NCBI RefSeq assembly: GCF_000970285.1
Contig: NZ_CP009516.1
Coordinates: 4,443,036 to 4,507,035, forward strand
From: Methanosarcina horonobensis HB-1 = JCM 15518
Lineage (GTDB): Archaea > Halobacteriota > Methanosarcinia > Methanosarcinales > Methanosarcinaceae
Direction of reading: 5' to 3'
Length of the DNA stretch: 64,000 bases
The position numbers were made by a program, and so were the translations under genes. Under the pieces are notes generated by a model. It made no database searches. It saw only the letters and a program-made list of their open reading frames with translations, and had not been told where the DNA came from. Positions 42,633 to 48,653 of the stretch are shown one piece after another; the first letter of the stretch is position 1, and every line of letters starts with the position of its first letter.

Positions 42633-45021
42633 TTACACCTTAAAAGACTCAACCCATTCCGGTCTTTCAGGAGGGTTATTGTTCAGCATTATCCTCCATT
42701 CTTCATCAGTCAACCTTTTTCCTGAAGGCTGCCAGAATTCATAATAACTCATTACAGGACCTGCTCCAAGAACGATCCTGCCGTCAGGCTGTTTATAAGC
42801 CACTACTATCAGATCCAGTTTTCCGGTCCCTTCTTCCAAAACGCTCCCCGAATTTGTATAGACATCTGCAACCATAACAGAGCTCTGGGCGTCACCATCG
42901 ATGTCCTCAAGCATCGGAGCTATGTTCTGGTCGAAATTTCTAATGAGTTCATACTCTTCATCCGTCAGCTCTTTGTTTTCAAGTTCTTTAATAGAGATTT
43001 CCAGTAGTTTTTCAAGAGTGTTTTCAAGAGTTGAAAAATCGTTATCCGACTGCTCATCAAGTACTTTCATTTCGGCCAGCCCGGAATGTGCCATTTTTGT
43101 AAGAGCAAGCATCCTGGCATAGAATTCGGGAACCGGCTCCACATATCCTTGAACCGGTTTCTCCTCAGGCGGCACGTAGGGAGCACCTGTAAAGTAAGCC
43201 TGCTTTGCATAGAGGATAGTATCATGCCTTAGCTCGGCCCAGGAGGCAAGGGCGGTGTTAAGCTGCTTATCTTCCCAGGCTTCGGTCTGCATAAAAGTAG
43301 GATAACCCGCCGGATAACTTACAAGGAGAGGCTTTAAAGCATACAATTGAGCCCAGTAGAGATTTTTATTCCAATCATCTTCATTAAGAGCTCCAAATTC
43401 ATATTCAAGAGATCGATAGCGCACTTTATAATCTTCGTTTTCGGAAATGCTCAGGTTTATAAGATGTTCTCTGGCTCTTTCAGAACCGAGAAGATACATT
43501 ATATTCAGAGCAGGAGTACCGAGCTTATGGAGAATATAGGAGTCTGGGACGTATCGTTGACCCATGAACCTGAAACCTTTTGTAGCATCAAGAGTTTCGT
43601 TTTCAGTTTCGGAACTGCAAGAATTATTTTCCCTGTTCCGCCATAGATTTTCGGACCTTCATATTTTTCCAGTTCCACTTTCAGTGCCGTGAGAGTTTCG
43701 TTGTCGAAGCTTACTCTTTCTCTATCGTCCCCAAAAACAGCATCAAGAGCTTCTGCATATTCATAGGGCCCAAGGTCATCGGAAAAACCAACATAGAAAG
43801 CTGTTACATCGTAGATTCGATCCCATCTGGCCCGGAGGTTTTCGTCCCTGTCAAAATGGTCAGAAATTAAAAGGGCCTGAAAAGTCTGAACTCTTGCTTT
43901 CTTATCTAATTCTTCCAATGCTGAGCTTTCTGTCATTGATTCTTCTGTTGTTGATTCTTCTGCTGTTGATTCTTCTGCAGTAATCATGCCTGACCGGAGC
44001 AGCATACTTATTCTACCGTGCCACATCATGGCCTTGAAGTAGTTCATCAGTTTTTCAGAGGATGTGTAGTGCCCTCTTGGGACGTACTGAGAGTAATCTT
44101 CTTGATACAGGAAAATCGGGGAGGTCTCAAAACCTTCGTGAGCTTCTATCAAAGCGAGTTCAGCTTCAACGTTTTCTTTTACAAATGAAGGGACTTCAAA
44201 GCTATGTTTTTCGGAACCCTGATCCTCTGTAGATTTGGCTTCGATCCTGTTTGGATCTGATTTCCCTTCAAGCAAACTAAGAGCAACTGCAAAATATGCA
44301 ACATTTCTTCTTGCAGCTTCTGTTACTTCTTCATCTGAATTGTTTTCTTTTGCCTCGTTATAGTCCTCTATGGAAGCTTCAAGAAAAGCTTTGTCAAGTT
44401 CCCAGAGCTTATCGTAAAACTCCTCTTCCTCGATTCTCTTTAAAGTCTCATCAAACTGGATATGGTAGAGATGAAGAAGAGAATCCGTTGTGACGAAGAT
44501 CGGGACACCAGCCACTTTAAGGCTCCTGTAAGTCGCATTTACCTGCTCCGCTTTAAATCGATTATTAGTAACATCATTTTCAATTACAACAAACCCATTT
44601 TTGTACAGTAAGTTCCTGTTTTCGTTTATAAGGGGAATCTGTTGAGTGAAAAGATAATAATTCTCAAGCTCCGAAGCCTTTAGAGGCAAAGAATAAGCGG
44701 GGACATCAGCCTCAAACTGCAGGTTTTCTTTGCTGTAATATCTGGAAAAGGAGCTTTCCTTTTCAATTTCAAGGGTATTGCTCTTTTCAAAAAATTCTCT
44801 ACAGGAACAGTTTCCCAGGTATTGTTAAACGAAACACCCAGTCTATCGGTCATTTCTTTCTGGCGTGTTTCTGTAACAGGGTCGCTATTGCTGGCGTTCA
44901 GGTTATCAGCCATTTCTTCCAATTCGGTTTCTTTTACTGTCCCGCTGCTGTCAATGCAGCCGGACCCAGAAACAAGTGTTATCGCCAGCAGGAAGATAAC
45001 CATCAATGCATTTATTTTCAA
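42633..45021 (-). pseudogene. DUF3160 lipoprotein gene, copy A, with two frameshifts
   Basis: Tandem paralogue of the intact gene at 45108-47402, aligning end to end. The 5' part (45021 to about 44790) keeps the lipoprotein signal (VSGSGC) and starts with TTG as copy B does. Frame is lost at a run of six A on the plus strand (44789-44794), where copy B has one base more; the protein resumes at residues equivalent to PAYSLPLKASELENY. It is lost again near 43615, where copy B has GGAACCTGCAAG and this copy GGAACTGCAAG. The three pieces together cover the whole family domain up to ERPEWVESF. A small EEST-type repeat (about 43920-43980) is unique to this copy. Either a pseudogene or, for the homopolymer site, a base-calling problem. 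Confidence 0.8.
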
Positions 45022-45107: not shown

Positions 45108-47402
45108 TTATCCCCTAAAGGATTCAACCCATTCCGGCCTTTCAGGAGGGTTATTGTTCAGCATTATCCTCCATTCTTCATCAGTCAATCGTTCTCCTGA
45201 AGGCTGCCAGAATTCATAATAACTCATTACAGGACCTGCTCCAAGCACGATCCTGCCGTCAGGCTGTTTGTACGCTACTACTATCAGGTCCAGTTTCCCT
45301 GTCCCTTCTTCCAGAACACTTCCTCCCGGACCTGTATAAACATCTGCAACCAGAGTGGACATCTGGGACTTTATATCCACATTCTCAAGCATTGGGGATA
45401 TATTCTGATCGAAATTTCTTATGAACTCATACTCTTCATCCGTAAGCTCTTTGTTTTCAAGTTCTTTAATTGAGATTTCCAGCAGCCTTTCAAGGGTGTT
45501 TTCAAGAGTTGAAAAGTCTTTATCCGACTGCTCATCAAGCACTTCCATTTTAGCAAGCCCGCTATGTGCCATTTTTGTAAGAGCAATCATCCTAGCATAG
45601 AACTCAGGCACTGGCTCCACATAACCCTCCACAGGCTTTTCTTCCGGAATTTGGACAGAACCTGTGAAGTAGGCCTGCTTTGCATAGAGAATAGTATCAT
45701 GCCTGAGTTCTGTCCAGGAAGCAAGAGCTGTATTAAGCTGTTTATCTTCCCAGGCTTCGGTCTGCATGAAGGTAGGATAACCTTCTGGATAGCTTACAAG
45801 AAGGGGCTTTAAGGTGTATAATTGAGCCCAGTAAAGGTCTTTGTTCCAGTCTTCTTCATCAAAAGCTCCAAATTCTTTTTCCAGAGATAGGTGGCTATTT
45901 TTATGTTCTTCACTTTCAGAAATACCCATGTTTTTCAGGTGCTCTCTGGCCCTTTCAGAACCGAGAAGATCCATGATGTTCAGGGCAGGAGTACCGAGCT
46001 TATGGAGAACATAGGAATCAGGGATGTAGCGTTGACCCATGAACCTGAAACCTTTTGTAGCATCAAGAGTTTTGTTTTCAGTTTCGGAACCTGCAAGAAT
46101 TATTTTCCCTGTCCCGCCGTAGATTTTCGGACTTTTATATATTTCCAGCTCGGTTTTCAGTTCTGCCAGGCTTTCATTATTGAAACTCACTCCATACCTA
46201 TTCCCCCCAAAGACAGTATCCAGAACTTTTGCGTATTCATAGGGCCCGAGATCGTCGGAAAAACCGACATAGAAAGCCGTTACCTCGTAAATTCTATCCC
46301 ACCTGTCTCTGAGGCCTTTGTCCCTGTCAAAATGGTCAGAAATTAAAAAGGCCTGAATAGTCTGAATTTTTGCTTCCTTTTCCGGGTCTTCTGAAGAAAT
46401 CATTTCCGGCTGAAGTAGCATACTGATTCTGCCGTGCCACATCATAGCCATAAAATAGTTCTTCAGTTTCTCAGAGTGAGTGTAATGTCCCCTTGGGGTG
46501 TACTGAGAGTAATCTTCTCCGTACTTGAAAATTGGAGATATTCCTCCCTCCTGTTCCTCTATCAGGTGCAGTTCAGTGTCTACATCTATTTTTACAAAAG
46601 AAGGAATTTCAAAACTGTATTTTTTTGCTTCCTGAGAATCGAATAGTGCAATTTCCCCAAAATTCTCCCATGATTGCCCTATCTGGTCGGATTTCGGTTC
46701 AAGAAGGCTCAAAGCAACCGCAAAATATGCTACATTTCTTCTTGCAGCTTCTTTTTCTAGTCCTGATGCACTGTCATAATCCTCTACGGAGGCTTCAAGG
46801 AGAGCTTTGTCAAGTTTCCACAGCTCATCGTAAAATTTCCCTGATTCCGCCCTTTTTAGCGTCTCATCAAACTGGATGTGATAAAGGTGAAGAAGAGAAT
46901 CAGACGTAATGAAAATAGGAACATCAGCCACTTTCAGGTCTCTGTAAGTATCATTTACCCGTGTGTTCCCTGCTCCGGGCAGGTTTTCAATAGCCCGATT
47001 TTCAATTACAACAAACCCATTTTTGTACAGCAAATTCCTGCTTTCGTTCGTCAGGGGAATATTTTGGATGAAATCACCATAGTTTGAAATTTCGGATGCC
47101 TCAAGAGGTAAAGAATAAGTGGGAACGGAAGCTCCAAACTGTAGATTTTCTTTACTGTAATATCCAGAAAAAGAGCTTTGCTTTTCAAGTTCAATAGTAT
47201 TGCTCTTTTCGGAGAAATTTTCAACAGGTGAAGGGGCAGAGGTGTCATAGAAAAAGGTATCATTGGATATATTATCCAGGTTATCTGTAATCCCTTCCAT
47301 GCCGGTTTCTTTAACTGGTTCACTACTGCTGTCAATGCAGCCTGATCCAAATATCAATGAAACCATCAGTAAAAAAATAACTATCAATTCACTTATTTTC
47401 AA
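45108..47402 (-). CDS. DUF3160 family surface lipoprotein, copy B
   Basis: 764 residues. Signal peptide with lipobox (FLLMVSLIFGSGC, Cys22), a Ser/Glu-rich linker to about residue 90, then the DUF3160 domain to the end: ESRNLLYKNGFVVIEN, FITSDSLLHLYHIQFDETL near 165, MMWHGRISMLLQPEM near 318, SERAREHLKN, WAQLYTLKPLL and the C-terminal VLGAGPVMSYYEFWQP. The function of the family is unknown; it is common on the surface of Methanosarcina and some bacteria. The start is a TTG preceded by GTGAGGAA. Codon and motif identity with copy A shows a recent tandem duplication. Confidence 0.85.
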   Translation of the reverse strand: MKISELIVIFLLMVSLIFGSGCIDSSSEPVKETGMEGITDNLDNISNDTFFYDTSAPSPVENFSEKSNTIELEKQSSFSGYYSKENLQFGASVPTYSLPLEASEISNYGDFIQNIPLTNESRNLLYKNGFVVIENRAIENLPGAGNTRVNDTYRDLKVADVPIFITSDSLLHLYHIQFDETLKRAESGKFYDELWKLDKALLEASVEDYDSASGLEKEAARRNVAYFAVALSLLEPKSDQIGQSWENFGEIALFDSQEAKKYSFEIPSFVKIDVDTELHLIEEQEGGISPIFKYGEDYSQYTPRGHYTHSEKLKNYFMAMMWHGRISMLLQPEMISSEDPEKEAKIQTIQAFLISDHFDRDKGLRDRWDRIYEVTAFYVGFSDDLGPYEYAKVLDTVFGGNRYGVSFNNESLAELKTELEIYKSPKIYGGTGKIILAGSETENKTLDATKGFRFMGQRYIPDSYVLHKLGTPALNIMDLLGSERAREHLKNMGISESEEHKNSHLSLEKEFGAFDEEDWNKDLYWAQLYTLKPLLVSYPEGYPTFMQTEAWEDKQLNTALASWTELRHDTILYAKQAYFTGSVQIPEEKPVEGYVEPVPEFYARMIALTKMAHSGLAKMEVLDEQSDKDFSTLENTLERLLEISIKELENKELTDEEYEFIRNFDQNISPMLENVDIKSQMSTLVADVYTGPGGSVLEEGTGKLDLIVVAYKQPDGRIVLGAGPVMSYYEFWQPSGERLTDEEWRIMLNNNPPERPEWVESFRG

Positions 47403-47504: not shown

Positions 47505-47672
47505 CTAATTTTTTAATATAATTACTCCGAAAATTAACAATAATGTTGCACATAACCCAATTGCTACAACATGGTTGATGTCCTCTATTGGAAATGCAGT
47601 GATTTTTCTGTCGTTTACTTGAGTAGAGAAATTTAATGTAGAATTTTCTAATCCACCACTACTGCCTGAAAC
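47505..47672 (-). other. Open-frame extension beyond the in-frame UAG (readthrough region)
   Basis: 55 sense codons continue in frame after the UAG at 47673-47675, ending at a second UAG (47505-47507). They encode a Ser/Gly/Asn linker (VSGSSGGLENSTLNFSTQVN) and a C-terminal membrane helix (VVAIGLCATLLLIFGVIIL) with a KN tail, the expected anchor for this class of surface protein. If the second UAG were also decoded, 16 more residues follow to a TAA at 47454. Confidence 0.6.
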
Positions 47673-48653
47673 CTAGCTGAAGGACTGAAAATGTGAATCG
47701 TCATAAAGGTAATCAAAACGGACCATGCCTTTCTTGTTGTAGAACACAACGGAAACACCATCAAGACCGGCTTTAATCGCATGTTCTTTCATAATATTGC
47801 AAATTTCGTTAAGTTTATTCTTTGAATAAACCGTTTCCTCTTCTTTATAATAAAGTTCTATTGGAAAAACTTCATCCATCATCTCTGAACCGTAGGAAAT
47901 TATCGGCCCTTCAGGGTAGAAGTATGGCTTTATTTCATCAAGAGAACTATTTTTTATAACTTGTAAGGATGAAGAATTAGACAAATAATAGTAAAGCACC
48001 GGAAATTCAACATCTGTCAGTTGAACAACGTTCCTGCCAAATGTAGAATTACTTTCAGGAAAATAGAACATTGCCGGTTTATTCCAGAGACAAAACATAA
48101 CCGGGACTTCATCAAGTCCGGCTTTAATCGCGTTATTTTTTACAATGTTGTAGATTTCTTTTAACTCATTTTCTGAATAGATAGTTCTACTACCTTCATA
48201 ATCATAGAGTTTAATCAAGAAATACCCGGGCATAGGACCGGATCCGTAATCGACTATCGGACCATCAGGATAGAGGTAAGGCTTTACTTCAAAAATAGAA
48301 CTGTCTCTTACATCCTGCAGGGTTGAACTGAACTCAGCCAGCTGAGAGGTGTTTTTAATTTCCGGAACACTTCCATACGCTTTTAGCACACTGGGGTCGT
48401 ATATCTTACTTTCAGGATCAGTACAGTTTTTAAGAGATTCTTTACTTAACTTTGAGAGCAGGGAGATTATTTCCTCCGGGTTATCGTGCCAGGAATAGTA
48501 TGGCACATTATACATGGGTATTTCTGACCAGTGAATTGTTTTCTCTGTAATTTCATCCTGGTCAGGTAAATAGAAACTATCTGCAAGTGCAGGTTCTGAA
48601 AGCAGGATTAGAACCAAAAAAACAATAAGTAGTCTTAATGGTTTTCTACTCAT
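47673..48653 (-). CDS. Secreted protein with internal duplication, ended or interrupted by UAG
   Basis: 326 residues up to the UAG; family not recognised. The signal peptide is LLIVFLVLILLSEPALA. Two homologous modules follow, at about residues 115-205 and 238-310. Both read KPYxYPxGPIxxYGSxxM, then a YSxNxLxEIxNIxKxxAIKAGLDxVxVxF segment. A domain duplication is therefore clear. Every other intact gene in the window whose stop I checked ends in TAA or TGA; here UAG is followed by an in-frame anchor. In Methanosarcina UAG can be read as pyrrolysine. The alternative is a nonsense mutation that turned an anchored protein into a secreted one. Leader element copy 2 lies upstream. Confidence 0.75.
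   Translation of the reverse strand: MSRKPLRLLIVFLVLILLSEPALADSFYLPDQDEITEKTIHWSEIPMYNVPYYSWHDNPEEIISLLSKLSKESLKNCTDPESKIYDPSVLKAYGSVPEIKNTSQLAEFSSTLQDVRDSSIFEVKPYLYPDGPIVDYGSGPMPGYFLIKLYDYEGSRTIYSENELKEIYNIVKNNAIKAGLDEVPVMFCLWNKPAMFYFPESNSTFGRNVVQLTDVEFPVLYYYLSNSSSLQVIKNSSLDEIKPYFYPEGPIISYGSEMMDEVFPIELYYKEEETVYSKNKLNEICNIMKEHAIKAGLDGVSVVFYNKKGMVRFDYLYDDSHFQSFS

Follow-up and report, generated by a model that had tools for sequence, protein, structure and literature searches.

A species-private in-frame amber codon between the domains and the membrane anchor of a Methanosarcina surface protein, a candidate for partial suppression by pyrrolysine

What becomes of a gene that acquires an in-frame UAG in a host able to decode this codon as pyrrolysine (Pyl)? 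The question is raised by a gene on the minus strand of a 64,000-nucleotide stretch of the Methanosarcina horonobensis HB-1 = JCM 15518 genome (the whole of the DNA analysed, here called the window), whose reading frame meets UAG and then stays open through a predicted membrane anchor. A previous, sequence-only reading proposed a pyrrolysine-containing surface protein, with a recent nonsense mutation as the main alternative. The features of the locus are these:

47673–48653, minus strand: open reading frame with an ATG start at 48653, 326 codons, ending in TAG; the product if UAG terminates
47673–48653, minus strand: within this frame, a signal peptide and two domain copies of about 90 residues, 54% identical over 87 amino acids
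48579–48653, minus strand: N-terminal hydrophobic segment, probable signal peptide, MSRKPLRLLIVFLVLILLSEPALAD, judged from sequence and from a helix at residues 5–23 in a low-confidence model
47673–47675, minus strand: in-frame TAG, private to the window genome; CCG, TTG, CTG or CTA in relatives and TCG in distant copies
47508–47672, minus strand: 55-codon C-terminal tail, homologous to the orthologues' uninterrupted C-terminus and made up of a Ser/Gly/Asn linker and a transmembrane helix
47505–47507, minus strand: second TAG, at the ancestral stop position; TAA in the orthologues of G094 and G099

The UAG at 47673 and the 55 open sense codons behind it were confirmed, on the minus strand after 326 codons, and the 326-codon body contains no other stop or frameshift. 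The tail (VSGSSGGLENSTLNFSTQVNDRKITAFPIEDINHVVAIGLCATLLLIFGVIILKN) has the linker and membrane helix previously recognised: the highest mean hydropathy over any 19 residues is 3.0, consistent with a transmembrane helix, and the tail matches orthologous C-termini. The description of a secreted protein with a duplicated domain is also borne out. The second TAG (47507–47505), missing from that description, is followed by 16 further codons in frame and then TAA.

No protein family from Pfam or NCBIfam was found for the protein. Its AlphaFold model is poor (pLDDT 51), a PDB fold search returned no match at E ≤ 0.001, and a PDB sequence search gave a single match at E = 0.97. Within the window genome, the two domains match the N-terminal part of one secreted protein (L002) at E about 1e-10. 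This protein continues into a GDSGGP-containing, trypsin-like segment, for which the serine-protease match is weak. Two secreted trypsin-like proteins of this genome (L002:1318–2490 and L006:2316–3134) carry the same domain at their N-terminus, where it is covered by no Pfam family. By analogy with the propeptides of secreted serine proteases, the protein may be a stand-alone module that binds trypsin-like serine proteases. Elsewhere in the window, a DUF3160 gene at 42633–45021 on the minus strand is broken into three open reading frames in three frames. It adjoins an intact copy at 45108–47402, and a tblastn search with the intact copy matches all three frames in order.

Stop-codon usage gives a first measure of how unusual the amber codon is. 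Among 55 non-overlapping window ORFs of at least 100 amino acids, TAG ends only the 326-codon frame, so the earlier observation, that every other intact gene checked ends in TAA or TGA, holds. Sampling 864 kb of the genome gave 521 ORFs of 150 amino acids or more, of which 20 (3.8%) stop at TAG; TAG is thus an ordinary, rare terminator in this genome. Extensions past TAG are mostly as short as those past TAA and TGA. An open run of at least 55 codons follows 13 of 273 TAA and 14 of 225 TGA stops (about 5–6%), so the length of the tail alone proves nothing. Codon usage is equally uninformative as to coding: the codon-usage score of post-stop extensions shows no excess after TAG, the 55-codon tail itself scores low (0.024), and the runs that score high behind TAA and TGA seem, judging by their length, to be next genes in the same frame. 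Of the sampled TAG ORFs with long extensions, the third (L098) looks spurious: Pfam gave no match for it, and its coding score is low.

Homology is more telling. The family was searched genome-wide and orthologue codons were aligned to the window gene, with one genome per species. An uninterrupted full-length orthologue (71% identity) was found in G094 (Methanosarcina sp. DH2), and a second with an uninterrupted tail in G099, where the sequence includes an assembly gap. Both are syntenic with the window gene, sharing its gene neighbourhood, and both end in ...AAIGLCATLLxIFGIIIVKN-TAA. Searching with the tail by itself gave good matches only in these two (E = 1e-15 and 1e-13), with weaker matches in G075, which we take to be M. 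acetivorans C2A, and marginal ones in G087 (UBA293) and G089 (UBA402). The two good matches go beyond chance, and judged from these alignments the tail is the protein's genuine ancestral C-terminus. The C-terminus has taken other courses as well. In the G075 orthologue the linker is kept, but a frameshift has removed the anchor; what is left of it lies decayed in another frame, with charged residues in its helix (L011, about 2580–2720). The anchor therefore seems dispensable there, its loss being tolerated. The distant copies in G089, G102 (M. spelaei MC-15) and G081 (L012, L013 and L014) end, by eye, in a PGF-CTERM-like tail (PGFGLLG...KLKKK) and not in an anchor; the NCBIfam PGF-CTERM model matched neither of the two distant copies scanned. 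In G082 the gene survives as a degenerate copy (L016), disrupted by frameshifts and stops and lying beside a secreted trypsin-like gene.

At the position of the amber codon, the aligned codon is CCG in G094, TTG in G099, CTG in G087, CTA in G075 and TCG in the distant copies; TAG was found there in no relative with the gene. A single substitution would turn either TTG or TCG into TAG, and the TAG probably arose by one base change. PylS scored above the curated cut-off in 27 of the 31 Methanosarcina genomes searched, including G094, G099, G087 and G075, so the absence of UAG from these four is not for want of machinery and the codon is private to the window genome. The sequence-only reading had named this comparison as a check on its proposal, counting sense codons in orthologues, with this strain alone mutated, as evidence against it. 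At the species level that is the outcome, with sense codons there throughout. A pyrrolysine protein in the sense of a conserved or selected use of Pyl is not supported; the UAG position is not conserved in the orthologues, as it would be in a conserved pyrrolysine protein.

The tail nonetheless shows no decay. Measured against G094, the 326 codons upstream of the TAG have an omega of 0.32; for the 55 codons downstream the value is 0.25, and for the final 30 it is 0.13. On this comparison the body of the gene is undamaged and constrained by purifying selection; neither the relaxed selection nor the further disabling changes that would mark a pseudogene were seen in it. At codons where G094 and G099 agree, the tail carries 10 synonymous and 8 nonsynonymous changes specific to the window genome, and this is an excess over the synonymous share of 23% expected without selection (binomial p = 0.0025); the synonymous proportion does not differ between tail and body (p = 0.78). 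All these figures come from small counts in pairwise alignments, with the branching order of the genomes still unsettled. The tail is seven whole codons shorter than in both orthologues. Protein-level selection therefore acted on the tail over much of the branch. What this branch test implies depends on the age of the TAG, and the closest genomes that carry the gene already differ by 19–25% of its nucleotides. A tail undecayed over the branch means that the TAG is either recent or read through, two cases that the selection test does not separate.

Whether readthrough is to be expected depends on the host. As the sequence-only reading had supposed, this host is equipped to decode UAG as Pyl: the window genome encodes PylS, with a tRNA-Pyl of anticodon CTA just upstream of its gene, as would the host of a conserved pyrrolysine protein, and it has MttB and MtmB genes with one in-frame TAG each. 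No PYLIS-like structure was recognised: no Rfam match came near its gathering score, and the RNA after the UAG, where PYLIS dependence would call for a stable hairpin within about 100 nt, is predicted to fold no better than shuffled sequences (z = 0.35). Readthrough levels differ from gene to gene. PYLIS is not essential for Pyl insertion (review, PMC2933860), and no cis element is required (PMC8211752). An amber codon placed in E. coli uidA gave 20–30% apparent readthrough in M. acetivorans, a species for which a pylT deletion has also been described (PMC2933860). Given the Pyl machinery and this behaviour of an arbitrary UAG, a mixture would be the expected default in the window species, mostly secreted protein with a minority of anchored, Pyl-containing protein.

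Taking these results together, we consider it probable that the amber codon is a lineage-specific, near-neutral mutation that is partly suppressed by Pyl. In the window lineage alone, one substitution, the simplest being from TTG or TCG, would have created the TAG, so that a surface protein formerly anchored by its tail came to have an amber codon separating its second domain from the anchor. Ribosomes would mostly terminate at the UAG, giving a secreted protein of 326 residues, and occasional insertion of pyrrolysine, at residue 327, would give an anchored protein of 382 residues. Mostly termination with some Pyl insertion would follow from the presence of Pyl-tRNA and from there being no special context known to be needed. 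The amber codon itself would be nearly neutral, and not a selected switch.

The recent nonsense mutation that the sequence-only reading set against its own proposal proves the better starting point. In its plain form, every ribosome would stop at the UAG, so that the protein loses its anchor and is simply secreted, with the tail left as a dead remnant too young to have decayed. The privacy of the TAG and the ordinary fold of the downstream RNA suit this explanation well, as does the decay of the same gene elsewhere (the frameshift loss of the anchor in G075, the degenerate copy in G082) and, in the window itself, the breaking of the adjoining DUF3160 paralogue by frameshifts. However, the tail is in frame with its helix intact and an omega as low as that of the body, and with a host Pyl-tRNA and the 20–30% readthrough of an arbitrary amber codon in M. 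acetivorans (PMC2933860), zero readthrough would be surprising. We therefore think a plain nonsense mutation unlikely as it stands; it needs the addition of partial suppression by Pyl, which is expected in this host.

A different possibility is a switch kept by selection, in which the growth substrate sets the level of Pyl-tRNA and hence the ratio of secreted to anchored protein, with more of it anchored on methylamines. The UAG does divide the protein precisely into a complete secreted part and an anchor, the tail is under purifying selection and the Pyl machinery is present. Yet UAG is conserved in no relative, though most also have PylS, no PYLIS-like element was found at the locus and the anchor is dispensable in G075, all of which makes a selected switch very improbable. 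Equally little credence can be given to a sequencing or assembly error at 47673–47675: the TAG is one base from TTG or TCG and occurs in only one genome, but that genome is a single 5.02-Mb contig, 99.95% complete, the change is a substitution, unlike the homopolymer indels typical of errors, and no further stop or frameshift occurs in the gene body.

Partial suppression of a near-neutral amber mutation can be set beside known systems. The methylamine methyltransferases have their UAG at a place conserved within each class, and the Pyl there is catalytic. The window gene resembles MtmB, MtbB and MttB in having an in-frame UAG with coding sequence after it, as MtmB and MttB do in the window genome, but its UAG, private to one genome, falls within a linker, and its product is not an enzyme of that pathway. 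To our knowledge, few non-methyltransferase amber examples of the present sort have been documented. Neutral amber gain has been discussed for other genes (PMC3639795). The closest precedent is Thg1 (tRNA-His guanylyltransferase) of M. acetivorans, whose species-private in-frame amber codon a review describes as neutral (PMC2933860). The two cases share a UAG private to one species, a sense codon in relatives, a Pyl-decoding host and no role in methylamine metabolism; for the window gene, the restriction to one species was found with one genome per species. In our genome set, the Thg1 frame of G075 has 144 codons, against 243–286 in the other genomes with a full-length match. The two differ in that the UAG of Thg1 interrupts an enzyme and is reported there to be translatable as Pyl, whereas in the window gene it separates two domains from an anchor and Pyl insertion is only predicted. 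Because of this position, both products of the window gene may be stable. We therefore place the window gene, as a candidate, alongside Thg1. Many prokaryotic genes have also been reported to show low dN/dS downstream of in-frame stops, most cases being assumed by the authors not to represent functional recoding (Belinky et al. 2021, PMC7918605). Those cases are similar in that a stop lies inside a gene with purifying selection still visible downstream, but they come from a bacteria-wide survey, and the window host has a dedicated UAG-decoding tRNA.

By itself, the locus does not demonstrate a new role for pyrrolysine. It does offer a clean natural case of what an amber mutation does in an organism able to decode it, and raises the questions of whether such a gene yields both protein forms in measurable proportions and whether, in such organisms, amber mutations are longer-lived than ochre or opal ones.
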